A DNA stretch of 64,000 nt, from positions 496,001 to 560,000 of the forward strand of contig JACRBN010000026.1 of NCBI GenBank assembly GCA_016213105.1, read 5' to 3'. The position numbers were made by a program, and so were the translations under genes. Position 1 is the stretch's first letter; the number at the start of each line of letters is the position of its first letter. Below, piece after piece: positions 8,147 to 42,014 of this stretch. The stretch comes from Chloroflexota bacterium (lineage in GTDB: Bacteria; Chloroflexota; Anaerolineae; Anaerolineales; Villigracilaceae). Under the pieces are notes generated by a model, which was not told the origin of the DNA, searched no databases, and worked only from the letters and a program-made list of their open reading frames with translations.

Positions 8147-8161
8147 GGATGACAGTTATGT

Positions 8162-8179
8162 TATAATCGTATGACGATT
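8162..8179 (+). promoter_or_regulatory. vapBC promoter -10 overlapped by operator-like palindrome
   Basis: TATAAT (8162-8167) is the -10 box. It overlaps the perfect palindrome AATCGT-ATG-ACGATT (8165-8179). A palindrome on the -10 box just before an AbrB-fold antitoxin gene is what a VapB autoregulatory operator would look like. No good -35 is visible. Confidence 0.6.
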
Positions 8180-8201
8180 TAGTTATCGATAGGAGAATTG
8201 T

Positions 8202-8411
8202 ATGGATTCCGTGACTGTTTCACCTAAATTTCAAGTAGTTATCCCACAAAAAGTGCGCCAAGCGCTTCACGTCAAGCCTGGGCAGAAAATGCGAGCGCTG
8301 GCCTATGATAATCAGTTGATCTTCATCCCAATTCGCCCCATTAGGGAGTCGCGAGGATCTCTTAAAGGTATCGATACGACAATTGAGCGCGACGAAGAAG
8401 ACCGCGTATGA
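8202..8411 (+). CDS. vapB: AbrB/MazE-fold antitoxin (VapB type)
   Basis: The 69-residue protein has the swapped-hairpin AbrB N-terminus, VTVSPKFQVVIPQKVRQALHVKPGQKM (residues 4-30, given as the family pattern of strand, IP-x-x-VR helix and strand). A flexible acidic tail, ESRGSLKGIDTTIERDEEDR, would wrap the toxin. It binds DNA as a dimer and neutralises the PIN RNase encoded next. TAGGAGAA lies upstream, and the gene overlaps vapC by ATGA. Confidence 0.88.
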   Translation: MDSVTVSPKFQVVIPQKVRQALHVKPGQKMRALAYDNQLIFIPIRPIRESRGSLKGIDTTIERDEEDRV

Positions 8412-8785
8412 ATGTGGTGGATTCTTCTGGCTGGCTCGAATATTTTTCTGGCGAAGGGAATGCTGACTTCTTTGCCCCTGCCATCGAAGATACCGAACAT
8501 CTGCTTGTGCCGGTCATTTGCATTTATGAGGTGTTCAAGCGCATCATGCTGCAGCGGGACGTGAGCGTTGCTCGTACGAACGTCAGCGACATGCACGAGG
8601 GTCAGATTGTTGACCTGGATGCATCGCTTGCAATGAGTGCGGCACATATTTCCATGGAACTGAAATTGCCCATGGCCGATAGCTTGATCCTTGCGACGGC
8701 GCGCGCTCATGATGCCATCTTGTGGACACAGGATGAACATTTCAAAGGCTTGGATGGGGTTAAGTACATCGAGAAAAAAATCTAA
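8408..8785 (+). CDS. vapC: PIN-domain ribonuclease toxin (VapC type)
   Basis: This is a 125-residue PIN domain with the acidic catalytic set in place: D5 in VVDSSGWLEYF, E41 in IYEVFKR, D91 in LPMADSLILATA and D109 in WTQDEHF. VapC proteins are Mg-dependent RNases, often cutting tRNA or rRNA. It is coupled to vapB. The module sits between a sulfotransferase and a glycosyltransferase, so it is an accessory insertion in the glycan locus. It looks intact. Confidence 0.9.
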   Translation: MNVVDSSGWLEYFSGEGNADFFAPAIEDTEHLLVPVICIYEVFKRIMLQRDVSVARTNVSDMHEGQIVDLDASLAMSAAHISMELKLPMADSLILATARAHDAILWTQDEHFKGLDGVKYIEKKI

Positions 8786-8795
8786 AGCGGCATAA

Positions 8796-9581
8796 ATGTC
8801 CAAGATTGCCCTTCCCACCGTTTCCATCATCACGCCATCGTTCAATCAGGCGCGCTATCTGGAGTCCACCATCCAATCCGTGCTGACCCAGGATTACCCG
8901 CGCATCGAGTACATCATCGTGGACGGCGGCTCGACCGATGGCAGCGTGGACATCATCAAGAAGTATGCCGACCGCCTCGCCTGGTGGGTCAGTGAAAAGG
9001 ACAAGGGCCAGACCGACGCCATCAACAAGGGCTTTGCCCGTGCCACGGGTCAAATCCTGGCCTGGCTCAACTCGGATGATACCTACGAGCCTGGCGCGGT
9101 TGGCAGGGCTGTGAAATATCTGATCGAGCATCCCGAGGTTGGGATGGTCTATGCCGATTGCAATTTCATCGACGAGCACGGGCGCGTGATTGGCAAGTTT
9201 GGCGCGGCGCAGACCGATTACCGCCGCCTGCGCGAAGGCTACGTCCACATCCCGCAGCAGACCATGTTCTTCCGCGCGGAGTTGTGGAAGCAGGTCGGGC
9301 CACTCGACCCGTCGTTTTATTTCGCGATGGACTACGATCTGTGGACGCGCATTGCCGCCAAGTCGCCGATCCAATACCTCGCGGGCCAGACCTGGGCCAA
9401 CTTCCGCATGCACTCCTCGGGCAAGAGCGTCGCCGCCGATGACCGCTGCTGGCCCGAGATGCTCAAAGTCCACTACCGCGACGGCGGCTCGTTCTTCGCG
9501 CCCATCGTGGCGAAGTATTACGTACGCAAGCTGGTGGCTCCCGTGTGGAACTGGCGGCGGCGCAAGATATTGAAGATATAG
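8796..9581 (+). CDS. GT2 family glycosyltransferase, copy 2
   Basis: This 261-residue GT-A enzyme is closely similar to 4556-5482. It has [26 protein letters not shown] (residues 43-50), a near-identical [10 protein letters not shown] segment, NSDD at 92-95 and a C-terminal [18 protein letters not shown]. It lacks the C-terminal ~50 residues of its paralogue. It probably works with the GT-C enzymes on the same glycan. No Shine-Dalgarno sequence is evident; it starts 10 bp after vapC. Confidence 0.88.
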
Positions 9582-9621
9582 CTGGGCGGCTGGTAATGAA
9601 CAGCAATGAAGGTGAGAAATT

Positions 9622-10209
9622 ATGCAAAAAAAGATAAAAATCTTTTATTTATGCGTTAGTCTAATGGTTGTATCTTTATTTCTTACAAGGGTTACTTTGG
9701 CTGCGCCGTCAGAACCTGCAAAGGTTGTAAATCACACAACCAAAGAATGTGGAATGATGTACACAGGCGATGAGTGTGAAACTTGCGTTCCTACAAAAGG
9801 ATGGGAAATATTAAACGGGGAATGCCCTCAAGGATATACAGAGCTAGATATATGGATACCATATTATTCCTGCACCTTCGATGAAAAACCTCTCTGTTGC
9901 ACAAAAGGTCATTATGGCGCACAAGATATTTGCCCCAATTTAGTTGTTAATCCAATTGCAAAGCAATGCACATTGAATAATGAAAATAAAGTTTTTATAG
10001 CATCTTACCCTATCGGATGGATACCAAGTCCTATTTTTTTGTGTTCCGAAAATTATGAGTGGACTGACAGCGTCAATTATTCCAATAACCAATGGAACTA
10101 TATTTCAATTGCAATAATTCTCGTAGCCATAGTAATAGCAGTTGCTGCGTTTATCTTGTTATTTAGAAGAAAAATCAAACATGACTATAAGCCTCCCAAC
10201 AAAGCATAG
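9622..10209 (+). CDS. Cys-rich secreted/anchored hypothetical protein
   Basis: I recognise no family. The 195-residue protein has a signal peptide (residues 1-27, cleavage near LAA-PSEP), an ectodomain with about ten cysteines (motifs KECG, DECETC, GECPQG, YSCTF, LCCTK, DICP, KQCT, FLCSE) and a C-terminal membrane helix near 163-186 followed by RRKIKHD. The even cysteine count suggests disulfide bonds, so it is type I-anchored on the outside. AAGGTGAG precedes ATG 9622. The gene is strongly AT-rich compared with both neighbours, suggesting acquisition. The 100 bp after it contain nothing recognised. Confidence 0.65.
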   Translation: MQKKIKIFYLCVSLMVVSLFLTRVTLAAPSEPAKVVNHTTKECGMMYTGDECETCVPTKGWEILNGECPQGYTELDIWIPYYSCTFDEKPLCCTKGHYGAQDICPNLVVNPIAKQCTLNNENKVFIASYPIGWIPSPIFLCSENYEWTDSVNYSNNQWNYISIAIILVAIVIAVAAFILLFRRKIKHDYKPPNKA

Positions 10210-15734: not shown

Positions 15735-16337
15735 TCAACCCTCAAACAGGCGCAGCAGGATCGGCCTGGCTGCCAATGCCGCCCGCCCGCGATGGCTGAG
15801 GCGGTTTTTTTCTTTTGAGGGGAGTTCGGCCATCGTCTTTCCCAATTCTGTCAAATAGAAGATCGGGTCATACCCGAAGCCGCCCGTCCCGCGTTCCCCG
15901 GGGATGATCTCGCCCGGACAGTCGCCCTCGGCAAAATACAGATCCTCCTGCGGTGTGGCGATGGCAATCGTGGCGTGGAAGTGCGCCCGCCACGGCCTGG
16001 CCTGGCCTTGCAGGTTCTCGAGCAGGTAGGCGCGGCGGTCCGCGTCCTTCGCGCCGGGTTTGGGAGAGTAACGCGCCGAATACAAGCCTGGCGCGCCGCC
16101 CAACGCATCCACCTCCAGGCCCGAGTCGTCGGCCAGGGAGATCAATCCGCTGGCGCGGGCGAAGGCCAGGGCCTTCTTCGAGGCGTTTTCGGCGTAGGTG
16201 TGGCCGTCCTCCTCGATCTCCAGGTTTAGGCCGATCTGCGCGGGGGTGACGAGCTCGACGGGCAGGTTCGAGAGGATTTCCTGGAGTTCGATGACCTTGC
16301 CCTGGTTGTTGGTGGCGATGAGTAATTTTGTGTTCAT
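15735..16337 (-). CDS. rdgB: XTP/dITP pyrophosphatase (RdgB/HAM1 family)
   Basis: The enzyme hydrolyses non-canonical purine triphosphates (dITP, XTP) to monophosphates, keeping them out of DNA. The 200-residue length and motifs fit: IATNNQGKVIELQEIL at the N-terminus (ATNNxxK), YAENASKKA, SLADDSGLEVDALGG with the metal-binding aspartates, GFGYDPIF and the closing LSHRGRA. ATG 16337 overlaps the queG stop region by ATGA; a longer open frame upstream only shadows queG. It is the last gene of the operon. Confidence 0.95.
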   Translation of the reverse strand: MNTKLLIATNNQGKVIELQEILSNLPVELVTPAQIGLNLEIEEDGHTYAENASKKALAFARASGLISLADDSGLEVDALGGAPGLYSARYSPKPGAKDADRRAYLLENLQGQARPWRAHFHATIAIATPQEDLYFAEGDCPGEIIPGERGTGGFGYDPIFYLTELGKTMAELPSKEKNRLSHRGRAALAARPILLRLFEG

Positions 16338-17383
16338 GGCGGGTTGGCTTTCTCCTGGATGGTTTTTATGGCCCAGGCGGCGTGTTCGCGTACCAGCGGC
16401 TCGGGATCGTCGAGCGCGGAGTCCAGCGCCGTCAGGGCAGATTCGTCGCCGCAGTTGCCGAGCGCCACGCTTACGTTGCGCAGGTAGCCGCGGCGCTTGG
16501 CGCGTTTGACGGGGCTGTCCCTGAAGGTGTGGTTGAAGGCTTCGGGGGTCAGGGCCAGATCCTCGGTCAGGGTGCGGAGCGGGATCAGACCCTCGAAAAC
16601 GGGGTCCCCCGCGGGGGCGAAGCGATTCCACGGGCAGACCTGCTGGCAGACGTCGCAGCCGAAGACCCAATCGCCCATCAGTGCGCGCAGGTCAGCGGGG
16701 ATGTCCGCCTTAAGTTCGATGGTCAGGTAAGAGATGCAGCGGCGCGCGTCGAGGGTGCGGTCGGGCAGGATGCACTGCGTGGGACAGGCCTCCAGGCAGC
16801 GCGTGCAGGTGCCGCACTGGTCGGTGGCAAAGGGCGGGTCGGGGTCGAGTTCGAGGCCGAGCAGGATTTCGGAAAGGAAGAAGGTGGAACCGAGGCGCGG
16901 ATTGATCAGGCAGGTGTTTTTGCCGATCCAGCCGAGGCCGGCCTGCTGGGCCAGGTCACGTTCGAGCAGGGGACCCATATCGGTGTACCAGCGGTTGGGG
17001 ATGGAATGCCCGGCCTGCGCTTCGATGAACTCCACCAGTTGTTTCATGCGCCCGGGCAATACGAGGTGGTAGTCTTTGCCCCAGGCGTAGGCGGCAATTT
17101 TCCCACTCCTCATCCCTGGCTCCTCTCCCACAGGGCGGGAGGGGAAGTAGGGCGTGCCCAGCACGAGGATGGACTGGCACTCGGGCAGGATCAGGCGCGG
17201 GTCGGCGCGACGGGCGCGGGCGGATTCGTTCGCGAGGTAGCCCATCGTCCCGTGGCGGCCCTGTGCCAGCCAGCCTTCGAAGGTGGAGTAATGTGGGGGA
17301 GGCGCAGGTAACACAACGCCGACCAGGGCGAACCCCAGTCGGCGTGCTTCGTTCTTGATGGCGAGGGTCAGGGACTGACTCAA
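16334..17383 (-). CDS. queG: Epoxyqueuosine reductase
   Basis: QueG performs the last step of queuosine tRNA modification using cobalamin and two 4Fe-4S clusters. Visible are an N-terminal B12-binding region, ERDLAQQAGLGWIGKNTCLI with the catalytic-type aspartate, the ferredoxin motifs CGTCTRCLEACPTQC and CDVCQQVCPWNR, and C-terminal HEAT-like sequence (LDDPEPLVREHAAWAI). I place the start at TTG 17383, giving 349 residues. It is 7 bp from the stop of the upstream lipoprotein gene, and no ATG fits the family start. A palindromic repeat (17104-17146) encodes PSRPVGEEPGMRSGK in a loop. Confidence 0.92.
   Translation of the reverse strand: MSQSLTLAIKNEARRLGFALVGVVLPAPPPHYSTFEGWLAQGRHGTMGYLANESARARRADPRLILPECQSILVLGTPYFPSRPVGEEPGMRSGKIAAYAWGKDYHLVLPGRMKQLVEFIEAQAGHSIPNRWYTDMGPLLERDLAQQAGLGWIGKNTCLINPRLGSTFFLSEILLGLELDPDPPFATDQCGTCTRCLEACPTQCILPDRTLDARRCISYLTIELKADIPADLRALMGDWVFGCDVCQQVCPWNRFAPAGDPVFEGLIPLRTLTEDLALTPEAFNHTFRDSPVKRAKRRGYLRNVSVALGNCGDESALTALDSALDDPEPLVREHAAWAIKTIQEKANPP
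17104..17146 (-). repeat. In-frame CTCCTCTCCC...GGGAGGGG repeat within queG
   Basis: CTCCTCATCCCTGGCTCC and CTCTCCCACAGGGCGGGAGG pair as an imperfect hairpin. The peptide it adds lies between the conserved VLGTPYF and KIAAYAWGKDYH motifs, where other QueG proteins have a short loop. It is the same family as 12357-12395. Confidence 0.7.
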
Positions 17384-17390
17384 GGCCTTA

Positions 17391-18026
17391 TTATTTGACG
17401 ATGATCTTGACGTACAGGGGCTTGCCGAAGGAGAAGCTCCTGGCGTTGGCCATGATCCAGGCGCTGACGTATTCCCCAGCCTTGGCAGGCGCCTTGAGGG
17501 AGACCGAGACTTCCACTTCCTGGCCGATGGCAACCACGCCAGCCAGCGGCTGGGGCTGCCCGGACATGCGGTCGCCGTAGGAGTAGATCAAGCCGTAGCC
17601 GGCGCCCCAGACACAGGAGCCGGTATTCCTGACCTTCCAGGTTTTAACGAATTCCTGATTGGGAGCCACCTCGGTGCCGTCGGGGATGTTGACATCCACG
17701 GTCAGCGGATCGAAGCTCATGCTGTCGCAGGGGAGCGGCGTGAACGTGGCCAGGACGGGCAGGCCGCTGGTGGCATCGGTGAGGATGATACCGGGGGTGG
17801 CGAGTGTCTCGGTGGGCAGGGGCGTAAAGGTTGGGGCGGGCGTCTCGGTATTGGCGGGTGTGGGCGAAAAGGCCGCGGCAGTCAGGGTAATTTCGGCAAT
17901 CACGGTCTGGGCGGCAGCCGTGCTCAGTATGTTTACATCAGGCGTGGGCGCAGCCGGGGTCGCTGAACCGCAGGCGCTCAGTACAAGGGCTGCCAGGCTG
18001 ACCAGCGTAAGAAATTTAAGTTTCAT
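17391..18026 (-). CDS. NBR1 FW-domain-like lipoprotein 1
   Basis: This 211-residue lipoprotein has a signal peptide ending LSAC (lipid-bearing C19). A Thr/Pro linker (about 20-95) precedes one NBR1 FW-like Ig domain (about 100-211). The domain shows VNIPDGTEVAPNQEFVKTW, RNTGSCVWGAGY and YGDRMSGQ, then YVSAW. Three of the four signature tryptophans are clear (KTW, CVW, SAW); the last is replaced. In eukaryotic NBR1 this domain binds cargo; its bacterial role is not known. GGAGG precedes ATG 18026. It is the last of five such genes and runs into queG. Confidence 0.8.
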   Translation of the reverse strand: MKLKFLTLVSLAALVLSACGSATPAAPTPDVNILSTAAAQTVIAEITLTAAAFSPTPANTETPAPTFTPLPTETLATPGIILTDATSGLPVLATFTPLPCDSMSFDPLTVDVNIPDGTEVAPNQEFVKTWKVRNTGSCVWGAGYGLIYSYGDRMSGQPQPLAGVVAIGQEVEVSVSLKAPAKAGEYVSAWIMANARSFSFGKPLYVKIIVK

Positions 18027-18061
18027 CAGTGGACCTCCGAAGTTGCTGAATGGGACTCGGA

Positions 18062-18760
18062 TCAGGCTTTCTTCTTCACTTCGATCTTGTAGCAAAGGTA
18101 GGTGCCAAAATAATAACCCTTGTCGTCCCTCATGCGCCAGCAGCCTTCGTAAACACCCGGTGCGATATGCGCGGTAAGGAGCACGGTCAGGTTGACGGTG
18201 TCTCCCGGATCAACAAACTGGTTGCGGGCCTTGATCGGCAGGTCGTAGCCGTCCATCTTGTCGCCGGCCACAAAGACCAGCGAGTAGCCCTCGTCCCAGG
18301 TGCAGGTGCCGCTGTTCTTGACAGCCCAGGTCTTTTCGAAATCTTCACCGGGTTTCATCACGGTGCCGTCGGGGACGGTCACGTCCGCAATGTAGGCCGC
18401 ATCGTTGCAAAGCGGGCCGGATGTGGGCGTGAAGAGCGTGATGGGCGTGCCAGCCAGGAGGGGCGTGCTATTGGTTGCAATGGGCGTGAGACCCAGCGGC
18501 GTGCCCTGACCGGGCAGCGGGCCGTTGGGAAGATTGGTGAAAGTGGGGAAGGGCGTGTTCGTGGGGAGCGGGGTCGGCGGGGCGGCCAGGGCGGTTTGCG
18601 TCTGTTTGACCGAAAAATCCGCAATCAAGGTCTGGGCCGCCGACGTGTACACAACGCTGACGTCCATCGTTGGCGCGGGGGTCGCTCCAATATTACAAGC
18701 TGTCAGGACAAGCGTGGCTATTGTAGCTACGGACAGCCAGACCAGTCTATTCAATCGCAT
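18062..18760 (-). CDS. NBR1 FW-domain-like lipoprotein 2
   Basis: The 232-residue protein has a lipobox LTAC (C22), a linker with TPLPTNTPFPTFT (about 23-120), and a terminal FW-like domain. That domain has VTVPDGTVMKPGEDFEKTW, KNSGTCTWDEGYSL, VAGDKMDGYDL and GVYEGCWRM. It ends with KIEVKKKA and lacks the fourth tryptophan. Because the domain is the last element, the protein is little more than a lipid-tethered FW module. The start at 18760 gives a clean signal peptide; GGAGG is 11-13 bp upstream, somewhat far. Confidence 0.78.
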   Translation of the reverse strand: MRLNRLVWLSVATIATLVLTACNIGATPAPTMDVSVVYTSAAQTLIADFSVKQTQTALAAPPTPLPTNTPFPTFTNLPNGPLPGQGTPLGLTPIATNSTPLLAGTPITLFTPTSGPLCNDAAYIADVTVPDGTVMKPGEDFEKTWAVKNSGTCTWDEGYSLVFVAGDKMDGYDLPIKARNQFVDPGDTVNLTVLLTAHIAPGVYEGCWRMRDDKGYYFGTYLCYKIEVKKKA

Positions 18761-18803
18761 AATTCGGGTACCTCCATGTGTTTGTCTCATTATAACGCAC
18801 GTC

Positions 18804-20033
18804 TTAGTGCCCGGGGTCGGATGTGCCGAACGGGGGACGGGTGGGCGTGGGGCTGGGTGTGTAGGACGGAGTCGGCGTGGGGGGCGTTACTCCCAGGCGG
18901 ACGATGCGCGGCGCCACCCAAACCGCTTCATCGTCGCGTGCCGATCCGTTGGCGGTAACCACCAGGGTAAATTTGCCTGTCTTTCCCGCCAGGTCGCTCA
19001 GGTCGAGATCGATCGTGAAGTATTTCCCCTCGTACACCTCACGCCAGGTGCCGAGAGTCTGCGTTTTTCCGTTGCTCGTGAACTCGAGGCGAAAAATAAC
19101 GTCACAGCGGTCATGGTTGTAGCGGCAGCTTAGCAACGCGCGGAAGCGGTCCCCATCCTGGATGGTGAAGGAGGGATATGTCCCGGCCAGCAGGCCGTTT
19201 TTGACGTTCATGGGCACAGTCAACAGGCTGGGATCTTCGGTCTTGTTCCCGTTTTCCAGTTTGGGATTCTTGATCGTGAAGGCGTACCCGCGCTCGTCGT
19301 CTTCCTTGCCTGGACAGGGCAAGGCGGTGCTGTTGTTGTTCGTCCAGGACGCCTCACACAGCCCGTTCACGAAATCGTAGGCGATGTAACTCGAGCTTTT
19401 CACGTTGATGTCCACCCAAAAGGCGGTGTCTGCATTGGCTCCGATTCCAAACAGGACATTCGAGGCGTTGCGCAGTTTCCAATAGCCGCGATAGTGGCCG
19501 TCCTTGGTGGGCGCCGTCAGGTTGACGGAGATGTCGATGGTCTGCCCGGGGTTGACATTGGCGGGCAGGGACACGACGGCCGGGCCGCTCATCGCGTCGC
19601 CGTTGATGAAGACCAGCGCATAGGAACTCGTCCACGAACAGGTGCCGGTGTTTTTCAGGCGCCAGGTCTTGGTGAACTTCGAGCCTCCCGAAAAGACCGT
19701 TCCGTCGGCAATGGTGATGTCCTTGACGAAGGAGGCGGCGTCACAGCGGCTGACGATCGTCGGCGCCGTGCTGGGCAGGATGATGGGCGTCGAGGTGGGC
19801 ACGGGCAGGATGGGGCTGGCGGTGGGTTGAATCGGACTGAGCGGGGTGGCCGTGGGCAGCGGCAGTCCGGGAGTGGGACTGGCGGCCGACGTGCTGGTTT
19901 GCGCGGCAAGGGTATACAATCCGTTCAGGGTGGCAATGGTGTCCGGGGTGGACGGCGCCACCGGGGCATTGCAGGCCAGTTGAACGACGATCAGGAGCGC
20001 GAAAAGCAGGCGAAGTGAGTATTTTTTGAACAT
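18804..20033 (-). CDS. NBR1 FW-domain-like lipoprotein 3 with extra beta domain
   Basis: This 409-residue lipoprotein has lipobox QLAC (C21), a linker of TPT repeats, an FW-like domain (about 95-210) with all four tryptophans (KFTKTW, TCSWTSSY, YRGYWKL, AFWVDI), and then a second beta-rich domain of about 160 residues. The second domain contains LCEASWTNNNSTALPC and a lectin-like strand pattern (FTIDLDLSDLAGKTGKFTLV). The tail is TPTPSYTPSPTPTRPPF. The second domain may bind a carbohydrate, which is inference only. CGGAGGGC precedes ATG 20033. Confidence 0.8.
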   Translation of the reverse strand: MFKKYSLRLLFALLIVVQLACNAPVAPSTPDTIATLNGLYTLAAQTSTSAASPTPGLPLPTATPLSPIQPTASPILPVPTSTPIILPSTAPTIVSRCDAASFVKDITIADGTVFSGGSKFTKTWRLKNTGTCSWTSSYALVFINGDAMSGPAVVSLPANVNPGQTIDISVNLTAPTKDGHYRGYWKLRNASNVLFGIGANADTAFWVDINVKSSSYIAYDFVNGLCEASWTNNNSTALPCPGKEDDERGYAFTIKNPKLENGNKTEDPSLLTVPMNVKNGLLAGTYPSFTIQDGDRFRALLSCRYNHDRCDVIFRLEFTSNGKTQTLGTWREVYEGKYFTIDLDLSDLAGKTGKFTLVVTANGSARDDEAVWVAPRIVRLGVTPPTPTPSYTPSPTPTRPPFGTSDPGH

Positions 20034-20130
20034 GGTGCCCTCCGGGAATGGGTTTCATCAACACCCATAGACGCCCATTTTGCGGGGGGAGTTCCCAGAA
20101 AAACGGCGCAACCGGGCGGGGTTCCCGTGG

Positions 20131-21066
20131 CTATTGGCAATCGTAGAGGAAGGTTGCCTTGCCGTAGTCTTGCTCGGTGGGAAAGACTGTGAAAAGTTGC
20201 GCCCATCTCTCGCCTGTATTCGACCCGTAGTGAAGAGCGTACACCGTGCTTACGGTTTTCGAACCGGCTTCTGTGAACTTCAGGGTCACTTTGTTTTCTT
20301 CTCCGCCATCGCTATATCTCCAATTGTAGATTACCCGGGTGGGGCCATTAACTGAGATGGTCGCATAGATCGTCCAGCGCACGTTGGCAGGGCAGCCCGT
20401 GGCGGGGTTGCGGACTACTTCATATGTCACGGTGGTAATTCCGTATTCCACCTTGGTGGATGAATTGACGGTGATGTTCACCCAGAAGGGCGAGTCATAG
20501 CCGACGCCAAAGGTGTTGCCGCCGGGCGTCTGGAGTTTCCAGGAGCTGGTGTAGTCGCCGTCGGTGGTGGGGGCGGTCAACACCAGCGGCACATCCACGA
20601 TGTCACCGGGCAGGGCCTGCTGGGGGAAGTTGTAGACGTATCCGCCGCCCATGACGTCGCCGTCCCAGAAGACGATCTTGTAACTCGTGTCCCACACGCA
20701 GTTGCTGGTGTTTTGGATGCGCCAGACCTTGGTAAATTGCTGTCCGGGTTTCATGATGGTGCCATCGGGGATGGTTTCCTCCACCAAGCTGGCCTGGGCG
20801 CAGTTGAGATCCTTGCCCGATGTGGGCGGAAACGTGGGTTTGGGGGCAAGGCTGGGGGTTGCCGCCACGAGGGTGCCTGACGGGACGAGGGCCGTCGCGG
20901 TGGGGATCGAAGCGGGCAGGGTCGGCTGTTGTTGGGCGTCGCGGGCCTGCACTGTCTGGGCGACGGCCGTGGCTACGTCATCGTTTGTGTTTGCGTTGCC
21001 GCAGGCGGAGGCCACCAGGGCCAGGCTGAACAGGATCGCAAATAGTTTGTATTTTTGGAAGGGCAT
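20131..21066 (-). CDS. NBR1 FW-domain-like lipoprotein 4
   Basis: The 311-residue lipoprotein (lipobox VASAC, C22) has a short linker and an FW-like domain (about 80-195). It shows ETIPDGTIMKPGQQFTKVW, NTSNCVWDTSYKIVFWDGD, YTSSWKL and SPFWVNI, so all four tryptophans are present. A C-terminal beta domain of ~105 residues follows (EYGITTVTYEVVRNPATG, VIYNWRYSDGGEENKVTLKF), looking like a second Ig/PKD-type sandwich. AAGGAAA precedes ATG 21066. TATAAT on this strand (21109-21114) could be its own promoter, just after the terminator of the upstream gene. Confidence 0.8.
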   Translation of the reverse strand: MPFQKYKLFAILFSLALVASACGNANTNDDVATAVAQTVQARDAQQQPTLPASIPTATALVPSGTLVAATPSLAPKPTFPPTSGKDLNCAQASLVEETIPDGTIMKPGQQFTKVWRIQNTSNCVWDTSYKIVFWDGDVMGGGYVYNFPQQALPGDIVDVPLVLTAPTTDGDYTSSWKLQTPGGNTFGVGYDSPFWVNITVNSSTKVEYGITTVTYEVVRNPATGCPANVRWTIYATISVNGPTRVIYNWRYSDGGEENKVTLKFTEAGSKTVSTVYALHYGSNTGERWAQLFTVFPTEQDYGKATFLYDCQ

Positions 21067-21118
21067 TCGATTTCCTTTCTTGCCGTGGCCAGAAAATGAC
21101 CAGGGCACATTATACACG

Positions 21119-21156
21119 GGAAAAAGAAAAGCGCCCGGTAAAAGCCAGGCGCTTCG
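21119..21156 (-). terminator. Rho-independent terminator after lipoprotein 5
   Basis: On the minus strand GAAGCGCC, a short loop and GGGCGCTTTTC are followed by a T-rich run (CTTTTTCCC). It lies between lipoprotein genes 5 and 4, so these two are probably separate transcripts. Confidence 0.7.
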
Positions 21157-21177
21157 TGTAGATAAAGATTGGGCGCT

Positions 21178-22293
21178 TTAAGGCTGGTATACGATGGTCA
21201 AGGTCACCGAGCCGGCAGTGCAGGCGATGTAGTCGGCCTGCCCATCCCCATCGCTGGAGGCGGACGAGGGATGCAGACGGATTTGGAAGCGGGCGCGACT
21301 CTCCGTCACGCGCGTCTGGACGAAGTTCTTCACATCGATGGCTGTCCCGGGCGCGGAGGTGAGCAACTGGACACCGGTTCCGCTCAGATCGTAATCGGAC
21401 TGATCCAGCGGCAGCGGGTATTGCAACTCCCCCACCCAGATGCCAGCCAGGCTGGCGAACGGGTTTTGCATGATGCTGCAACTGCTCAGGTTCAGGGTCG
21501 CGCTGTTGATCGTCTTACCGGACAGGGAGGAAATGTCGAAGCTCATGTAGCCGCGGGCCAGGAAGTTGTCGCCGGTGTCGCCGGCCAGGATGGTGCCGGG
21601 GATACCCTGCGCCGCCGCGGGTTCATAGACGGTCCCGCTCTCGCTGCCGATGGCGTTGAGCACCACCTGGGCGACCGGGTTGGTCGGGGTGAGCGTGATC
21701 GTGGGAGTGGCCACCTTGATTTGCACATAGAACTGCGAGAACAACACGCCGGAGGCATTGCGCAGTTTCCAGTAGCCGGTGTAATCGCCCGGGGTGCTGG
21801 GCGCGGTCAGGTTGATGGAGATGTCCACGGTCTGGCCGGTGTTGATGTTGCCGGACAGTGCCTGGGTGGCGGGACCGTTCATGGAGTTCCCGCTGGAGAA
21901 GACGACGGCATAGGATGGCGTCCACGAGCAGGTGCCGACGTTCTTGAAGCGCCAGGTCTTGGTGAAGGCCTGGCCAGGCAGGACGACCGTCCCGTCGGGG
22001 ATGGTGACGTCGGTGACGAACTGGGAAATGTCACAGGTGGAGGTTGAGGTGGCTGGGATCACCCGCGTCGGCGGGATCAGGGTGGGCGGCGCCACGGTGG
22101 TGATCGCCACAAGCGGCGGGGGGGTGTTCGTCGCGGTGGGCGGCGCAACCAGGGTCAACTGTGCCTGAACGGTCTGCGCCACAGAGGTGGCGGGCAGGTC
22201 GACCGTGGGGGTGGCATTGGACGGCAGGTTGCAGGCGCTGAGCGCCAGGATAAGGGCGATGGCAATTGAAATCAGTCGGACGCGTTTATTCAT
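21178..22293 (-). CDS. NBR1 FW-domain-like lipoprotein 5 with DNRLRE/CBM-like domain
   Basis: This 371-residue lipoprotein (lipobox ALSAC, C21) has a linker, then an FW-like domain (about 90-205) with VTIPDGTVVLPGQAFTKTW, VGTCSWTPSYAVVFSSG and YTGYWKL; the fourth position is Y/F. A C-terminal domain of ~165 residues (VLNAIGSESGTVYEP, ARGYMSFDISSLSGKTINSA, DVKNFVQTRV) resembles the DNRLRE/CBM96 domains of secreted carbohydrate-active proteins. GAGGAGAAAT precedes ATG 22293. As the first gene of the array, it may bind extracellular glycans. Confidence 0.82.
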   Translation of the reverse strand: MNKRVRLISIAIALILALSACNLPSNATPTVDLPATSVAQTVQAQLTLVAPPTATNTPPPLVAITTVAPPTLIPPTRVIPATSTSTCDISQFVTDVTIPDGTVVLPGQAFTKTWRFKNVGTCSWTPSYAVVFSSGNSMNGPATQALSGNINTGQTVDISINLTAPSTPGDYTGYWKLRNASGVLFSQFYVQIKVATPTITLTPTNPVAQVVLNAIGSESGTVYEPAAAQGIPGTILAGDTGDNFLARGYMSFDISSLSGKTINSATLNLSSCSIMQNPFASLAGIWVGELQYPLPLDQSDYDLSGTGVQLLTSAPGTAIDVKNFVQTRVTESRARFQIRLHPSSASSDGDGQADYIACTAGSVTLTIVYQP

Positions 22294-22457: not shown

Positions 22458-22491
22458 GAAAAAAACAGGAGCCGGGGACGGCTCCTGTTTG
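22458..22491 (-). terminator. Rho-independent terminator of the nucleoside ABC operon
   Basis: On the minus strand AAACAGGAGCCG-TCCCC-GGCTCCTGTTTTTTT gives an 11-12 bp stem and a U tract. It sits 26 bp after the last permease stop. Confidence 0.9.
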
Positions 22492-22516: not shown

Positions 22517-23776
22517 TTATTTTTCGTAGGCCACGCCATCCGCGGCGGGGGCGACGGCCTTGCCCACCACGCCGGTCAGGACGATCATCGTCACGATGTA
22601 GGGAGCCATGAGCAGGAATTCAGGCGGAATGCCCACCTGCAGGATCTGCAGCTTGACCTGGAGCGAGTCCGCGAAGCCGAAGATCAGCGAGGAGGTGTAT
22701 GCGCCGATGGGAGTCCACTTGCCGAAGATCATGGCGGCCAGGCCGATAAAGCCCTTGCCGGCGGTCATGATCTCGTCGAAGCGGCCGACGGAACCGATGG
22801 TGAAGTACGCGCCGCCGATGCCCGCGAACATGCCGCCGACGATGACGTTGACGTAGCGGGTCAGGAACACGTTCACGCCGAGGGTGTCGGCAGCCTTGGG
22901 ATGCTCACCCACGGCGCGCGTGCGCAGGCCCCAGGGGGTGTAGAACAGCACGATGTGCAGGATCACCACCAGGATCATGGTGAGGTAGACGATGGGCGTG
23001 TTGTCGAACAGCACCGGGCCGAGCACAGGGATCTTCGACAGCAGCGGAATGGAGATGGCAGGGAAGGTGCCCGAGTTGTTCAGGGCGTCGATGTTCTTCT
23101 CCAGGAAGCGCGAGGAGATGAAACTGGTCGTGCCTGCGCCGAGGATGTTGACGGCCGTGCCGCTGATGATCTGGTCAACCTTGAATTTGATCACCAGGAA
23201 GGCATGCAGCGCCGCGATCAATCCACCGGTGAGGATGGCGCTGAGCAGGGCGAGCCACAGGCTGCCGGTGGTGGTGCCGACGATGACGGAGACCTGGGCC
23301 GCGAAGAGCATGGTACCCTCGATGCCGATGTTGGTCACGCCAGCCCGTTCGCTGATCACACCGCACAGGGCGGCCAGCGCGATGGGCGTCGCGCGTACGA
23401 AGGAACTGCTCAACATGCCGACCAGGCTGAAGGATTTGTCACGCGCCGCCCAAACCAGGAAGGCCATCACGAAACAGAAGGCCAGCACCGTGACCAGCGC
23501 GCTGTTCGATTTGACGCCGCGCGCCATTTGAAAGGCGCCGACCGCGATCAGCACCAGGGCCATGGCGTAGGTCGTGGCCTGGGATGGCAGAACCAGGTCG
23601 GGGATGACGAAGGCGTCAGCCTTGGCCTCGTTGAGGCCAAACCTGGTCACCTGGCCTGCTTCGGTGCTAAAGGCAAACAGGAAAAGCACCAGCAGTCCCA
23701 CGGCGATCAACACGATGCCCCAGACAATGCGGGGGCGCATGTCGTCGCTTTGAAGAGTTGTTTTTGTATTCATCAT
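22517..23776 (-). CDS. BMP-type nucleoside ABC transporter, permease 2
   Basis: This 419-residue membrane protein belongs to the BPD_transp_2 group (NupQ/YufQ type). About ten helices surround SLVGMLSSSFVRATPIALAALCGVISERAGVTNIGIEGTML, of which the ERAGVTNIGIEG loop is the family hallmark. GVNVFLTRYVNVIVGGMFAGIGGAYF lies further on. Together with 23795-25051 it forms the translocation pore for nucleosides or related solutes. It follows the first permease by 18 bp. The start at MMNTK is uncertain by one codon. Confidence 0.9.
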   Translation of the reverse strand: MMNTKTTLQSDDMRPRIVWGIVLIAVGLLVLFLFAFSTEAGQVTRFGLNEAKADAFVIPDLVLPSQATTYAMALVLIAVGAFQMARGVKSNSALVTVLAFCFVMAFLVWAARDKSFSLVGMLSSSFVRATPIALAALCGVISERAGVTNIGIEGTMLFAAQVSVIVGTTTGSLWLALLSAILTGGLIAALHAFLVIKFKVDQIISGTAVNILGAGTTSFISSRFLEKNIDALNNSGTFPAISIPLLSKIPVLGPVLFDNTPIVYLTMILVVILHIVLFYTPWGLRTRAVGEHPKAADTLGVNVFLTRYVNVIVGGMFAGIGGAYFTIGSVGRFDEIMTAGKGFIGLAAMIFGKWTPIGAYTSSLIFGFADSLQVKLQILQVGIPPEFLLMAPYIVTMIVLTGVVGKAVAPAADGVAYEK

Positions 23777-23794: not shown

Positions 23795-25051
23795 TTAACC
23801 GCGGGATTGAAGTGCGTGCTTTTCAGCAGGGCGGATGCGATAGAGCCAGCGGATGATGTCCGGGGCGGCCACGAAAACGATGACCAGGCCCTGGATGATG
23901 GAGATGATGTCCACCGGGATGCCCGCCAGAGATTGCATGCGGGTGGCTCCGCCGCGCAGCACGCCGAACAACAGCGCGGAAAGCACCACGCCGAGCGGAT
24001 GGCTCTTGCCGAGCAATGCAATGGCGATGGCGTCGAAGCCGTAGCCGGCCGAGAAGCCCTGTCCCACCCAGTGATCCACGCCGAGCACCTGGGAGGCGCC
24101 CGAGAGGCCCGCCAGGCCGCCAGAGATGACCATGGCCAGCACGAAGTTGCGGACGATGTTCACGCCGGCATATTTGGCGGCGTCCGGGTTGGCGCCCACG
24201 GTGCGGATCTCGAAACCGATGGTGGTCTTGAACAACAGCCAGTAGATCAGCCAGGCCACCAGCAGCGCCAGGATGAAGCCCCAGTTCAGGCGCAGCGGAT
24301 CGGGGAAGAAGTGCGGCAACTCGGCGGCTTCCGCGATATTGCGGGTCACCGGGCGGAAGCCGGGGGATTTCATCGGACCGTTCAGCAGCCAATCGCTCAG
24401 GCGGAAGCCGATCCAGTTCATCATGATCGTGTTGACCACTTCGTGCGCGCCGAATTTGGCTTTCAGGTAGCCAGGCACCGCGCCCCAGAGTGCGCCAGCT
24501 GCAATGCCGCCCAGCAGCGCCAGGGGCAGGTGGATGATGGCCGGCAGGCTGCTGAAGCTGTAGCCCACGAAGACTGAGCCGAGCGCGCCCATGAAGAACT
24601 GACCCTCGGCGCCGATGTTGAACAGGCCGCAGCGGAAACCGACTGCCACTGCCAGGCCGGCGAAAATGTAGGGGGTGGCCGTTACCAGGCTTTCCGTGAT
24701 GGGGTAGATGGCCTTCATGAATGCGGCGCTGTCGCCGGTGCTGAAGTAGGTCTGGATACCCGCGAAGATTTCCGCGGGACTGCCCAGTGAGCCGCCGAAC
24801 AGCGCGCCGTAGGCGACTGCAATCGAGGTCCAGGTGGCGGCAAGGGCCGCGCCCGGCGCCTGGAAGAAATTCTGCCAGGCGGCGATGACGGTTGCGTCGG
24901 TGGCGGCGATCACGATGGCGCCGATCACGAGGCCGGTGAAGATAGCCAGCAGCGGCAGCAGGGTCGAATAACTGCCCTCGAAGATATGCCGCAGGTCGAA
25001 TTTCTTGTCCTGTTTCCCGGACGGGGTGTCTTTTACAGTTTTGTCAGTCAA
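23795..25051 (-). CDS. BMP-type nucleoside ABC transporter, permease 1
   Basis: The 418-residue permease (NupP/YufP type) has a long cytoplasmic N-terminus (TPSGKQDKKFDLRHIFEG) and multiple helices. Conserved segments are ATPYIFAGLAVAVGFRCGLFNIGAEGQFFMG, LALLGGIAAGALWGAVPGYLKAKFGAHEVVNTIMMNWIG and, near the end, GYGFDAIAIALLGKSHPLGV. FNIGAEGQ is the coupling-region signature. It lies 12 bp after the ATPase gene and ends before the second permease, completing a standard ATPase-permease-permease operon. Confidence 0.9.
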   Translation of the reverse strand: MTDKTVKDTPSGKQDKKFDLRHIFEGSYSTLLPLLAIFTGLVIGAIVIAATDATVIAAWQNFFQAPGAALAATWTSIAVAYGALFGGSLGSPAEIFAGIQTYFSTGDSAAFMKAIYPITESLVTATPYIFAGLAVAVGFRCGLFNIGAEGQFFMGALGSVFVGYSFSSLPAIIHLPLALLGGIAAGALWGAVPGYLKAKFGAHEVVNTIMMNWIGFRLSDWLLNGPMKSPGFRPVTRNIAEAAELPHFFPDPLRLNWGFILALLVAWLIYWLLFKTTIGFEIRTVGANPDAAKYAGVNIVRNFVLAMVISGGLAGLSGASQVLGVDHWVGQGFSAGYGFDAIAIALLGKSHPLGVVLSALLFGVLRGGATRMQSLAGIPVDIISIIQGLVIVFVAAPDIIRWLYRIRPAEKHALQSRG

Positions 25052-25063: not shown

Positions 25064-26626
25064 CTAAAAGACTTTCTCGACCGGGCCGGCGGATTTCTTC
25101 TTCGCCGATTCGGGAATGTCTTCCGGTTTGACGCCAGCCATCAACAGGCCCAGGTGTTCCTTGGTGGCTCCGGCGGGCAGAATGTCCACGATCCTTCCGC
25201 GATACATCACGGCGATGCGGTCCGAAAGCGCGATGATCTCATCCAACTCGGAGGAAACCACCAGCACGGCGGTGCCCTCGTCGCGCTTTTCGATGATGCG
25301 GCCGTGGATGTATTCGATGGAACCCACATCCAGGCCGCGGGTGGGCTGGGAGGCGATCAACAATTTGATCGGGCGGGAGAACTCGCGCGCCACGATTACC
25401 TTCTGCTGATTGCCGCCCGAGAGGGTGGAGGCCGCAACGAACACGCTTGGAGTGCGAACGTCGAATTGCTTTACCAGTTCGACCCCATTCTGGATAATGA
25501 TCTTTTCCTGCATGTTCACGCCCTTGGCAAAGGGCGGCTGGTAGTAGGTGCATAGCACCATATTATCCAGCAGCGGGAAGGAGAGCACCAGTCCGTGCTT
25601 CTGACGGTCTTCGGGCACGTGCGCCACGCCCTGTTCGATGATCTGGCGCGGTGTGGATTTGTGAATATCCTTGCCCGAAAGGAGGATCGAGCCGCTGGCG
25701 CTGCGCAGCAGGCCGGTCAGGGCGTAGACCAGCTCGGTCTGACCGTTGCCTTGCACGCCCGCGACGCCCATCACTTCCCCGCTATGCACGGTGAAGCTCA
25801 GGCCGTTGATGGCCGGGTTGTCACGCTCGTCGCGGACGAACAAATCCTTGACTTCCAGGACCGCTTCCTTGGGTTGGGCGATCTGCTTGTCCACCACCAG
25901 GTTGACTTCGCGGCCCACCATCATCTCGGCCAGCTTCCGTTCGTCCACCTGGCCGGGGATGGCGCTGCCCACCACCCTGCCGAGGCGCAACACAGTGATG
26001 CGGTCGGCGACCTCCAGGACTTCCTTGAGCTTGTGAGTGATGAAGATCAGGGATTTCCCCGAGGCGATCAATGAGCGGATGATCTTGATCAACCCCTCAA
26101 CTTCCTGCGGGGTCAGTACTGCCGTCGGCTCATCGAAGATCAGGATGTCGGCCTGGCGGTAGAGCACCTTGATGATCTCCACGCGCTGCTGAATGCCGAC
26201 CGGCAGATCCTTGATGTAGGCCTCGGGGTCGACCTCCAGGCCATACTGGTCGGAGATCTCGCGGATGCGCTTCGAAACCTTTTCACGGTCGAGGAACACA
26301 CCGTTCCTGGTGGTTTCATTGCCGAGCATAACGTTCTCGGTCACGGTCATGACGGGCACCAGCATAAAGTGCTGATGCACCATGCCGATGCCGCGGGCGA
26401 TGGCGTCGCTTGGGCCTTCGATATCCACCTTCTGATCGTTGATCAGAATCTCACCTTCGTTGGGCCGGTACAGGCCGTACAAGATGTTCATCAGGGTGGT
26501 TTTGCCGGCGCCATTTTCTCCCAGCAGGGCATGGATTTCACCTTTTTCCAGCGTCAGGTTGATATCCTGATTGGCCAGAACTCCGGGGAAGGATTTGGTG
26601 ATACCACGCAATTCCAATACGGGCAT
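25064..26626 (-). CDS. BMP-type nucleoside ABC transporter, dual ATPase
   Basis: This 520-residue protein carries two ABC domains. The first has Walker A GENGAGKTT (about residues 37-45), signature LPVGIQQRVEI and Walker B ILIFDEPTAVL. The second has a degenerate P-loop (GVAGVQGNGQTELV, about 288) and signature TLSGGNQQKVIVAREF. This asymmetry is usual in NupO/YufO and sugar-importer ATPases. It energises uptake of nucleosides delivered by the BMP lipoprotein (26782-27870). AGGAGAAG precedes ATG 26626. The terminator upstream at 26729-26765 probably lowers its expression relative to the binding protein. Confidence 0.93.
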   Translation of the reverse strand: MPVLELRGITKSFPGVLANQDINLTLEKGEIHALLGENGAGKTTLMNILYGLYRPNEGEILINDQKVDIEGPSDAIARGIGMVHQHFMLVPVMTVTENVMLGNETTRNGVFLDREKVSKRIREISDQYGLEVDPEAYIKDLPVGIQQRVEIIKVLYRQADILIFDEPTAVLTPQEVEGLIKIIRSLIASGKSLIFITHKLKEVLEVADRITVLRLGRVVGSAIPGQVDERKLAEMMVGREVNLVVDKQIAQPKEAVLEVKDLFVRDERDNPAINGLSFTVHSGEVMGVAGVQGNGQTELVYALTGLLRSASGSILLSGKDIHKSTPRQIIEQGVAHVPEDRQKHGLVLSFPLLDNMVLCTYYQPPFAKGVNMQEKIIIQNGVELVKQFDVRTPSVFVAASTLSGGNQQKVIVAREFSRPIKLLIASQPTRGLDVGSIEYIHGRIIEKRDEGTAVLVVSSELDEIIALSDRIAVMYRGRIVDILPAGATKEHLGLLMAGVKPEDIPESAKKKSAGPVEKVF

Positions 26627-26781: not shown

Positions 26782-27870
26782 TTACTTGACTTTCACAGCG
26801 CCGCTGCTGATGTCGGCAGTGAGCTTTTCGAGCTCGGCCAGCAGTTCGGGCGAAGCGCCATTGACAGCCGCGATACCGACGCCGCCATTGGCAAGGGTGC
26901 CGATATACAGGCCGCCCTTGAAGGTGCCGTCAACGATCATCTTGATCGCATCGTACACGGCCACATTCGTGTTCTTCAGCACGGAGGTCAGGACGATGTC
27001 CTTGTACTCGGCAGCGGAGACGGTCCAGTCATTGTCGACGCCAATGACCATGCAGGAGCCGCTTTCCTTGCAGTAGGCAGCGGAGCCGAGGCCAACGGGG
27101 CCGGCCACGGGCATAACGATGTCAGCGCCTTCCTGAACGAAGGATTCGGCGAACGCACGGCCATCATCGGTGGATTCGAAGTTGCCGGTGTAGGTGAAGG
27201 GCAGAACCTCGACGGCGGTGCCGTGGACGGTGTTGTAGTGCTTCACACCCGCTTCGAAGCCGGTCATGAAGATGGTGACGGGCGGGATTTCGAGACCACC
27301 GAAGGTGGCGACCTTGCCGGTCTTGGTCATGGCAGCGGCGGCGTAGCCAGCCAGGAAGCCGGCTTCGTCGGTCTGGAAGGTCAGGCCGAGGACGTTGGAC
27401 AGTTCGGATGCGGAACCGCAAGTCTGGCCCTCAACGGCGGTGTCGCCGAAGCAGTCAGGATACGAGTAGTCCACGATGGCGAACTTGGTGTCGGGGTTGG
27501 CCTTGGCGGCGGTGGCGGTGTCGACGCCGAGCAGGAAGCCGACGGTCACGATCAGGTCGGTGTCCTCATCCAGGAACTGCTGGATGTTCTTGGCGTAGTC
27601 GGACTGCTGCTGGGATTCCAGGTACTTGCCAGTGATGCCGAAATCGGCAGCGGCCTTCTCGACACCGGCGTAGGCGGTCGCATTGAAGGACTTGTCATCG
27701 ATACCACCCAGGTCGGTCACCTGACCAACCTTGATGGCGACGGGAGCGGCGGTCGGCTCAACGGGGGCGGCAGTCGGCTCGGCGGGGGCGGCGGTCGGCT
27801 TCGCGCCGCAGGCGGTCAAGATCATCGTGGCGACGAGCAGGACAGCCAATACAGTGTACAGCTTCTTCAT
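26782..27870 (-). CDS. BMP family nucleoside-binding lipoprotein
   Basis: The 362-residue protein has lipobox ILTAC (C21), a TAAPAEP-type triplicated linker (about 26-46) and the BMP/PnrA-like binding fold. The fold shows VGQVTDLGGIDDKSFNATAYAG, YAKNIQQFLDEDTDLIVTVG, EAGFLAGYAAAAMTKTGKVA and VIGVDNDW. DDKSFN is the usual nucleoside-contact region. It delivers purine nucleosides to the ABC importer encoded downstream. AGGAGA precedes ATG 27870; a long leader with a strong promoter (27977-28005) is upstream. Confidence 0.92.
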   Translation of the reverse strand: MKKLYTVLAVLLVATMILTACGAKPTAAPAEPTAAPVEPTAAPVAIKVGQVTDLGGIDDKSFNATAYAGVEKAAADFGITGKYLESQQQSDYAKNIQQFLDEDTDLIVTVGFLLGVDTATAAKANPDTKFAIVDYSYPDCFGDTAVEGQTCGSASELSNVLGLTFQTDEAGFLAGYAAAAMTKTGKVATFGGLEIPPVTIFMTGFEAGVKHYNTVHGTAVEVLPFTYTGNFESTDDGRAFAESFVQEGADIVMPVAGPVGLGSAAYCKESGSCMVIGVDNDWTVSAAEYKDIVLTSVLKNTNVAVYDAIKMIVDGTFKGGLYIGTLANGGVGIAAVNGASPELLAELEKLTADISSGAVKVK

Positions 27871-28065: not shown

Positions 28066-29094
28066 CTACTCTTCCTCCGGCTTTTCGGATGGCACCCCGC
28101 TCGATACCGTCCCATTTTTGAGCGCCTGCTGCAACTCCACCAGGGTATCTTGCAGCGCCAGGGGAATAAAGCGACCGGCCTCGTGGTAGGGCGAGAGGCG
28201 CATTTCCCCCATCACCAGGCTGGGAGGCTGCGCCAGCGGAATGAGTCCCAGAAGCTGGATCAGGATCGGGCCCGCATCAGGCGTGACCGAGGCGAGGATG
28301 CGCGCGCCCGCGTCGCGGCGCACTTGGAACTGATCCTGCTCCGAGCCGATGGCCCACGCCCCGGCCTGGGAGGCGGCCAGCAGCGCGCCCTGGCCGGTCC
28401 CGCCGCCGACGCCGAAGATGATGTCGGCCCCGTCCTCGATCATGTCCAGGGCGGTCGCGCGCCCCCAGGCCTCATCGCGGAAGAGGTCTTCGCGGTGACC
28501 GTCCTCGCGGTAGGTGATGTAGACGATCACGCCCAAGTCGGCGTACTCGACCCCGGCGCGGAAGCCCGCGCAGGACTGCCAGTTGGAGGGGATGCCCGAG
28601 GTCTCACAGGCCGCGCCGACCAGGCCGGTGTCGGTCATGTTGGCGGCCAGCACGCCAGCCAGGAATCCGCCCTGGTCTTCGGGGAAGTTCACGGCCAGGA
28701 AGTTTTGGCGGGAGGGGTCGGCGGGCTGGTCAAGGCCGATGAAAACGGAATCAGGATACAGATCCGCGGCCTGGAGGGTTTCATCCTCCAAACTTACGCC
28801 GCTGGAGACGATCACGTCATAGCCCGTTTCGGCGAAAGTCCCTAGATTCTTGGCGTAATCGCGCGCATCCACCGATTCGATGAAGTCGGCCTTTTGAATG
28901 ACGCCGTCGGCCAGGGCCTTTTGAATGCCCTCCCAGGCCGACTGGGTCAAGCCATAATCCTGCAGGCCGCCGGTGTCGGTGACCAGTCCCACGCAGTAAA
29001 TATCCGACCGCGCACAATCCATTTCGGGTGGAGTGCATGCGGTCAGAAGAATGGAAATGAAGAGCAGGATGAAAAAACGCAGACTGCGGTTCAT
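28066..29094 (-). CDS. Second BMP family lipoprotein
   Basis: The 342-residue lipoprotein (lipobox LLTAC, C20) has no Thr/Pro linker. It keeps the BMP fold in divergent form: VGLVTDTGGLQDYGLTQSAWEG, YAKNLGTFAETGYDVIVSSG, EDQGGFLAGVLAANMTDTGLV and AWAIGSEQDQF. The DDKSFN motif of the true nucleoside binder is changed to LQDYGLT, so the ligand may differ. It overlaps the MFS gene upstream by ATGA rather than accompanying ABC permeases. It might serve the neighbouring importer or act as a sensor. Confidence 0.85.
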   Translation of the reverse strand: MNRSLRFFILLFISILLTACTPPEMDCARSDIYCVGLVTDTGGLQDYGLTQSAWEGIQKALADGVIQKADFIESVDARDYAKNLGTFAETGYDVIVSSGVSLEDETLQAADLYPDSVFIGLDQPADPSRQNFLAVNFPEDQGGFLAGVLAANMTDTGLVGAACETSGIPSNWQSCAGFRAGVEYADLGVIVYITYREDGHREDLFRDEAWGRATALDMIEDGADIIFGVGGGTGQGALLAASQAGAWAIGSEQDQFQVRRDAGARILASVTPDAGPILIQLLGLIPLAQPPSLVMGEMRLSPYHEAGRFIPLALQDTLVELQQALKNGTVSSGVPSEKPEEE

Positions 29095-40013: not shown

Positions 40014-40020
40014 AACTGCG

Positions 40021-40052
40021 CGCCTCCCGTAATTTCACGGGAGGCGTTTTTT
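40021..40052 (+). terminator. Terminator after the lamin-tail gene
   Basis: CGCCTCCCGT-AATTTC-ACGGGAGGCGTTTTTT has a ten-pair stem and a run of six T. Confidence 0.92.
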
Positions 40053-40130
40053 ATCGCAGATGTTTCCACTGAACCTGTGATCCAGGGACTGGATGGCCAA
40101 CGTCAGGACTCCAAAATCCTCCATGTATCC

Positions 40131-40159
40131 TTGCCACTTTCGTTTCGATGGCATATACT
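40131..40159 (+). promoter_or_regulatory. Sigma70-type promoter of the propeller-like gene
   Basis: TTGCCA (40131-40136), exactly 17 bp, TATACT (40154-40159). An upstream in-frame ATG at 40148 lies inside this promoter, so translation must begin further down, at 40205. Confidence 0.7.
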
Positions 40160-40204
40160 CAACAAAATTCGATCTGCGCGGGAATGAAAACCAAGGCGGT
40201 ACCC

Positions 40205-41974: not shown

Positions 41975-42014
41975 GAACTTCCATCGGCACAATCCCCTCC
42001 CTTTGCGTTGGGAT

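Follow-up and report, generated by a model that had tools for sequence, protein, structure and literature searches.

In the present study, a 64,000-nucleotide stretch of contig JACRBN010000026.1 from a Chloroflexota bacterium (hereafter the window, to whose positions all coordinates refer) was analysed for five consecutive minus-strand genes (17391-22293) encoding predicted lipoproteins with a four-tryptophan (FW) domain, which is the signature of the human autophagy receptor NBR1. The genes lie behind those of an ATP-binding cassette (ABC) importer and are named E, D, C, B and A by their order after it. A first-pass annotation, made from the sequence alone, had described them as a tandem array next to a nucleoside importer and as a candidate for an undescribed surface-binding system. 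The occurrence of FW genes beside an importer of this kind, or beside genes for QueG and RdgB, in many relatives suggests that such a system is present.

Results

The array comprises FW-E (21178-22293), FW-D (20131-21066), FW-C (18804-20033), FW-B (18062-18790) and FW-A (17391-18026), all on the minus strand; the start codons of genes A and D are likely Met, as read from the sequence. Each protein consists of a lipobox (LSAC in A and E, LTAC in B, ASAC in D, and QLAC with an unusual Gln at -3 in C), a Thr/Pro linker and one FW domain, as the first-pass annotation had proposed. The FW assignment was borne out by PF16158 (N_BRCA1_IG; curated cut-off 28 bits), which was matched by 5/5 proteins with 94.1, 88.8, 96, 85.4 and 92.5 bits for A to E, respectively. 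All four tryptophans of the domain are present in C and D and three in A, B and E, in agreement with the three or four counted before. Across the surveyed loci, a lipobox was recognised by pattern in 96/110 FW open reading frames (ORFs), and 13 of the 14 that were missed have a Cys after a hydrophobic stretch, mostly as QLAC, leaving one without. In addition, an A-Q/L-T motif (e.g. TAAAQTV) close to the membrane, 5-50 residues past the lipidated Cys, was seen in 218/403 FW lipoproteins versus 10/202 other lipobox ORFs of the fetched loci, a redundant set.

Searches of PDB sequences with FW-E and FW-C returned ILRUN (E 1.6e-13 and 1.5e-15, respectively) and NBR1 (E 6.6e-11 and 4.2e-10). AlphaFold models were made of the FW domain plus distal domain for two of the five proteins, C (mean pLDDT 83.8) and D (91.1), and both were predicted to adopt the FW fold. 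The FW-C model superposed on ILRUN (6vhi) with Z 17.0 at 1.4 Å over 108 residues, on NBR1 (4ole) with Z 15.5 and on CtNbr1 (7vqo) with Z 14.7, and the corresponding values for the FW-D model were 15.8, 15.8 and 14.4, with root-mean-square deviations of 1.4-2.0 Å for the two models on ILRUN, NBR1 and the Ams1-bound CtNbr1 FW domain. The FW domain of the FW-D model also resembles a stretch of the bacterial sialidase 2ber (Z 8.4, 2.3 Å, 96 residues, 22% identity), which we take to be the Ig-like linker of that enzyme, and a mere spacer role of the FW domain is therefore conceivable.

Residue conservation was followed in an alignment of 97 array domains (A 16, B 16, C 17, D 21, E 27). The first two tryptophans are nearly constant, the third is mostly Trp and the fourth is variable. 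A pair of cysteines, one at most 25 residues before the domain and the other in N-x(2-4)-C-x-W, occurs together in 96/97 domains, and the lone exception, in L109, has neither; the pair probably forms a disulphide. The second member of this pair is absent from NBR1, ILRUN and CtNbr1 in the sequences compared. The pocket of the CtNbr1 FW domain is lined by D654, D658, W672, F651 and W763, as given in a passage of PMC9233695. At the corresponding array positions, D658 is Asp in 97/97 domains, D654 is acidic in 93/97, W672 is Trp in 95/97 and F651 is Phe, Tyr or Trp in 79/97, with mostly Leu in class D (13/21). The W763 position, aligned by way of the fourth tryptophan, appears to be aromatic in 74/97 (C 17/17, E 27/27, D 14/21, A 10/16, B 6/16). 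Most array domains, like ILRUN, carry a one-residue insertion between the D654 and D658 positions. Thus, nearly all pocket positions are kept in classes C and E and the pocket is looser in A, B and D, so that binding of protein N-termini might be a role of some members only.

An extra C-terminal domain, or head, follows the FW domain in C, D and E, the FW domain being terminal only in A and B. The three additional domains of the first-pass annotation are thus present; the DNRLRE/CBM96-like head that it singled out in E scores 30.7 bits with NF033679, under the curated cut-off of 34, and is one of several exchangeable heads. FW-C has a jelly-roll head like CBM51 and MAM, followed by a Thr/Pro tail, and FW-D an Ig-like head. 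In superpositions, the FW-C head matched CBM51 (2vnr) with Z 12.3 at 3.2 Å over 143 residues, with MAM and other jelly rolls scoring close behind, and a Pfam scan of 15 class C rows at E <= 0.1 found no CBM family. The only PDB sequence matches of the FW-C head, two uL24m proteins at E 0.41 and 0.48, were judged to be chance. Among 463 FW ORFs of the fetched loci, a redundant set from which the query sets of the head profiles had also been drawn, 129 carry a jelly-roll head, 109 an Ig-type head, 36 a DNRLRE-type head, one both a jelly-roll and a DNRLRE-type head, 21 another tail and 167 none. By class, there is an Ig head in 21/21 rows of class D, none in 32/32 rows of classes A and B, and a jelly roll in 15/17 rows of class C, the mixed one included. 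Class E is different in that its 27 rows comprise 11 DNRLRE-type, 9 Ig-type and 5 jelly-roll heads and 2 without a head (11, 6, 5 and 2 of 24 when three third-position genes, Ig-type L081, L117 and L118, are set aside), and 9/24 class E rows match NF033679 at E <= 0.01, the best at 5.4e-10. As judged from these sequences, it is in the first gene that distal domains have been swapped.

The importer beside the array, already noticed in the first-pass annotation, has all the parts of a BMP-type system, and its likely substrates are nucleosides. Its genes, all on the minus strand, encode permease B (22517-23776; PF02653), permease A (23795-25051; PF02653), an ATPase with two ABC_tran stretches (25064-26626; PF00005), a BMP/PnrA-type substrate-binding protein (26782-27870; PF02608, 177.5 bits) and a second BMP-type binding protein (28066-29094; PF02608, 120.1 bits). 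Directly after the array, and absent from the first-pass annotation, lie minus-strand genes for QueG, an epoxyqueuosine reductase (16334-17311; PF08331, PF13484), and for a protein of the RdgB/Ham1 family of non-canonical purine NTP pyrophosphatases (15735-16352; PF01725), a pair that often follows the array in relatives as well.

The conservation of this neighbourhood was surveyed in the own genome and 60 relatives, whose genus and family are tool-assigned labels. Permease B was found in 54/61 genomes (threshold 1e-60), and importer regions were obtained for the window and for 52 of the other 53, the remaining one having the gene at a contig edge. An FW gene was counted as lying behind the importer when it was encoded on the importer's strand at most 3 kb downstream, and regions showing enough sequence for this were taken as informative. 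This was observed in 26/30 informative genomes of the window's family (25/29 relatives and the window; four more regions of the family were too short) and in 0/17 informative regions from other families of the order (19 fetched). Thirteen of the 26 have five or six FW genes, three have one and the rest two to four, some arrays being ended by the contig. QueG or RdgB follows the last FW gene in 12/19 regions with enough sequence and is absent in 7, two of which (G017 and G036) carry QueG-RdgB next to three FW genes at another place in the genome.

A second sample consisted of the best 80 of at least 545 loci fetched with gene C as query, a query that excludes the importer and QueG-RdgB. At least 7 of the 80 duplicate regions of the first sample (L076-L127), and L161 and L186 appear to repeat the contigs behind L216 and L218. 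By title, all 80 are from Chloroflexota, labelled Anaerolineales, Anaerolineae, Anaerolineaceae, Anaerolinea or only Chloroflexi, with one title each for Brevefilum, Herpetosiphon and Chloroflexus. At least three separate FW genes on one strand were seen in 46/73 non-duplicate loci, a frequency biased by the use of gene C as query; 27 of these 46 have the importer, 34 have QueG or RdgB, and 43 have either. An array unique to this contig is ruled out by the recurrence in both samples.

FW genes are common in the order and strongly expanded in the window's family, as judged from the following counts. The own genome (5.4 Mb) has 16 FW matches, five of them in a row at this locus, and every one of the 61 genomes has at least one and up to 20. 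In an even draw over the phylum, 78/251 genomes matched at E 0.001 and 60 above the cut-off, including 15/15 in the window's family (the own genome among them), 6/6 others in the order and 6/10 others in the class; no FW match was found in the 14 control genomes searched. The PF16158 matches, the FW genes across relatives and the recurring arrangement rule out chance or a misread frame. Elsewhere in the own genome, three divergent FW genes lie in a row (L131:8137-10493), and one of them encodes a long poly-Gly linker. A frame of 704 residues at a further site (L130:9376-11487) starts with a hydrophobic, signal-like stretch and has two FW domains and no lipobox; such two-domain frames recur in relatives. 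At a third site, an FW gene lies directly behind recA on the same strand (L133:8605-10461). Seven neighbours of six other FW sites, the site on L130 being left aside, were scanned for transporters, and one ABC-2 type membrane protein was found (L132), the remaining neighbours being a glycosyltransferase, a nucleotidyltransferase, an aminomutase, RecA, an aminotransferase and one protein without a match.

Between importer and array lies a hairpin, ACAGGAGCCG-TCCC-CGGCTCCTGT followed by a T run (22459-22488, minus strand; -20.6 kcal/mol, z -4.95), with the stem ACAGGAG/CTCCTGT. The pattern CAGGAG-N(4-14)-CTCCTGTTTT has a single occurrence in the genome, at this junction, and the stem recurs between importer and array in relatives with either importer gene order. 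A looser scan of 2.43 Mb of fetched, partly redundant sequence, with mirror-strand readings of the same palindromes left aside, located the stem at 21 places between importer and FW genes, at one before an importer-less array (L157) and at two elsewhere, and many of the 52 importer-to-FW junctions are without this particular stem. The conserved columns in the hairpin alignment arise partly by construction, since the pattern used to select its rows already prescribes some of the stem. Terminator-like hairpins of any sequence were found at 32/52 importer-to-FW, 85/244 FW-to-FW, 48/62 BMP-to-importer, 6/148 within-importer and 0/39 FW-to-QueG junctions; the longer gaps alone favour more hairpins, because the median gap is 110 for importer-FW and 4 within importers. 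In view of the strong terminator-like hairpin, the array is probably not on one transcript with the importer, and where QueG follows, the array is likelier to share its message with QueG, given that no FW-to-QueG junction has such a hairpin. A second terminator-like hairpin lies between E and D (21128-21155, minus strand; -18.8 kcal/mol), and the hairpins behind the BMP genes perhaps allow more binding protein than membrane parts to be made. A simple promoter and terminator scan adds little, with 7 promoter-like sites (3.4 in shuffles) and 16 terminator-like sites (14.2 in shuffles); the permease B hairpin was not among them. A search of the window against Rfam at gathering thresholds, aimed at a riboswitch that would name the substrate, returned 0 matches. 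The window has a lower G+C content (0.46-0.51) at 1-2000, 8001-10000, 40001-42000 and 62001-64000 and elsewhere is mostly near 0.60.

In a tree of 111 FW domains, the 21 gene-D rows group in a single clade (95/86) and the 16 gene-A rows in another (99/96), and E, C and B, whose labels are partly author-assigned, are less resolved; the array genes are positional orthologs in part. In a permease B tree, built by a quick method, importers followed by FW genes fall into three separate groups. The first holds 13 rows of the window type (FW genes behind 11), the second 16 rows with the other gene order (FW genes behind 12, the remaining four being cut by the contig), and the third consists of G011 and G023, which lie among the importers of other families. 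Two pairs of congeneric genomes have unlike importers. Between G005 and G028, permease B is 48% and BMP 44% identical and the orthologous FW domains 51-70%; between G008 and G030, the values are 47%, 41% and 59-76%. In four congeneric pairs with like importers, permease B is 86-95% identical. Exchange of the importer in place, with the array kept, would be the simplest reading of these identities and of the permease tree, and such an exchange would argue for a shared role.

Discussion

Herein, we tentatively propose, as the most likely of the readings considered but one that falls somewhat short of even chances, that the array encodes a modular surface capture layer beside a nucleoside importer. 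The proteins would form a lipid-anchored layer outside the cytoplasmic membrane, each fixed by its lipidated cysteine, with the Thr/Pro linker as an outward spacer. Each would present a disulphide-stapled FW domain, and three of the five would add a beta-sandwich head resembling carbohydrate-binding or adhesive modules. Such a layer may hold extracellular polymers, glycans or dead-cell debris at the surface, and the adjoining BMP-type ABC importer would take up the nucleosides released nearby, importer and array thereby serving one task.

Several results weigh against this proposal. The idea of the array as part of the importer operon is weakened by the junction hairpin, co-transcription being unlikely or partial. 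Four genomes of the window's family have the importer and no FW gene behind it, and in one of these, G027, the two importer types and a five-gene array occur at separate places, the array lying beside QueG-RdgB. At five loci (L157, L161, L149, L186 and L163, the second and fourth being assigned to G027 and G036), the array is accompanied by QueG-RdgB and lacks an importer, and no other transporter was found in the ten upstream genes scanned from them. The ATPase is 64% identical between G005 and G028 and 73% between G008 and G030, and because like importers of different genera also share 73%, only the permeases and BMP clearly separate the importer types. Moreover, the heads of the five window proteins have no Pfam or NCBIfam match above cut-off, and the resemblance of the FW-D head to the biofilm scaffold RbmA (4kkp) is weak (Z 9.1, 2.7 Å, 97 residues).

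Some of the same results fit a structural or adhesive role in the cell envelope, for example in biofilm, a filament sheath or cell-cell contact, with the importer and QueG-RdgB as inherited neighbours that share no task with the array. The RbmA-like head of FW-D, the headless classes A and B, the persistence of arrays without an adjoining importer in some genomes and the terminator-like hairpin at the junction are all consistent with this explanation, which we regard as doubtful: chance inheritance poorly explains why three importer lineages stand at the same place and why congeneric genomes with unlike importers keep the array. The proteins might also be receptors for free N-termini, the FW pocket gripping the amine at the N-terminus of peptides or proteins outside the cell, as that of CtNbr1 does with Ams1. 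The Asp, acidic, Trp and aromatic residues conserved at the D658, D654, W672 and F651 positions speak for such a pocket; however, the aromatic wall at W763 is incomplete, class D mostly has Leu for F651, most array domains have the insertion between D654 and D658, and the Asp-Gly may be kept for its turn alone, so that a receptor role of this kind seems unlikely.

Very unlikely, in our opinion, is that the proteins are accessory subunits that dock directly on the importer, or on its BMP proteins, and broaden the range of substrates. Their conserved position right behind the importer would suit docking, as would the relatedness of the importers found there to the BMP-type importer of the window, by similarity to whose permease they were fetched. 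Arrays without an adjoining importer and importers without an array in other families argue against it, and five proteins with different heads exceed the need. A further-reaching possibility is that the FW lipoproteins are extracellular cargo receptors. The FW domain would then have served from the start to grip free N-termini or similar amines, would later have been taken into NBR1, and would have been turned by this family of Chloroflexota into a modular surface layer whose heads are exchangeable and which feeds a nucleoside importer; we consider this quite unlikely.

The locus provides FW domains that are small, probably stapled by a disulphide and sorted into ortholog groups; the pocket looks complete in some of them and not in others, which allows a direct test of whether protein N-termini are bound by FW domains. 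In addition, it points to a surface system conserved in an order whose genomes, in this survey, are nearly all metagenome-assembled. We found no study of bacterial FW members beyond short mentions. Diverse architectures of bacterial FW domains, including those of Chloroflexi and of the XRE-FW type, have been reported in a section of Marchbank et al. 2012 (PMC3357945), and a review passage repeats that some bacterial proteins have FW domains (PMC9582228). Because bacterial FW domains have been in print since 2012, the fold is not news and the gene cluster is. The bacterial section of PMC3357945 is silent on lipoproteins, on FW genes in arrays, on exchangeable heads and on linkage to importers, and no description of FW lipoprotein arrays was found among the matches listed in open-access literature, one of which, on glacier algae (PMC12501423), contains the name of the domain. 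The word "undescribed" in the first-pass annotation thus suits the arrays and their linkage in the literature searched, does not suit the bacterial FW domain itself, and attaches to a binding activity that is presumed.

Among known FW proteins, XRE-FW regulators have an N-terminal helix-turn-helix, whereas the array proteins have a signal peptide and lipobox and no helix-turn-helix match at E <= 1. NBR1 and ILRUN (PF16158) share with the array the fold, the sequence family and most acidic pocket residues, but the array proteins are predicted to be exported and lipid-anchored, and the NBR1 partner domains PB1, ZZ and UBA gave no Pfam match at E <= 1 in the five proteins. The logic of the proposed layer may be likened to that of SusE and SusF of Bacteroidota, surface glycan-binding lipoproteins that combine a tether, an Ig-like stem and binding modules and stand beside an importer, and whole-chain Foldseek matches of FW-C include SGBP-B (6e57) at a low TM-score. 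The SusC and SusD proteins of Sus systems had no match among the 13 window proteins scanned, an ABC importer standing here instead. This importer is presumably of the kind of the BmpA-NupABC and PnrA nucleoside importers; it has the same domain set as BMP/PnrA-type importers and is here followed by genes for FW lipoproteins.

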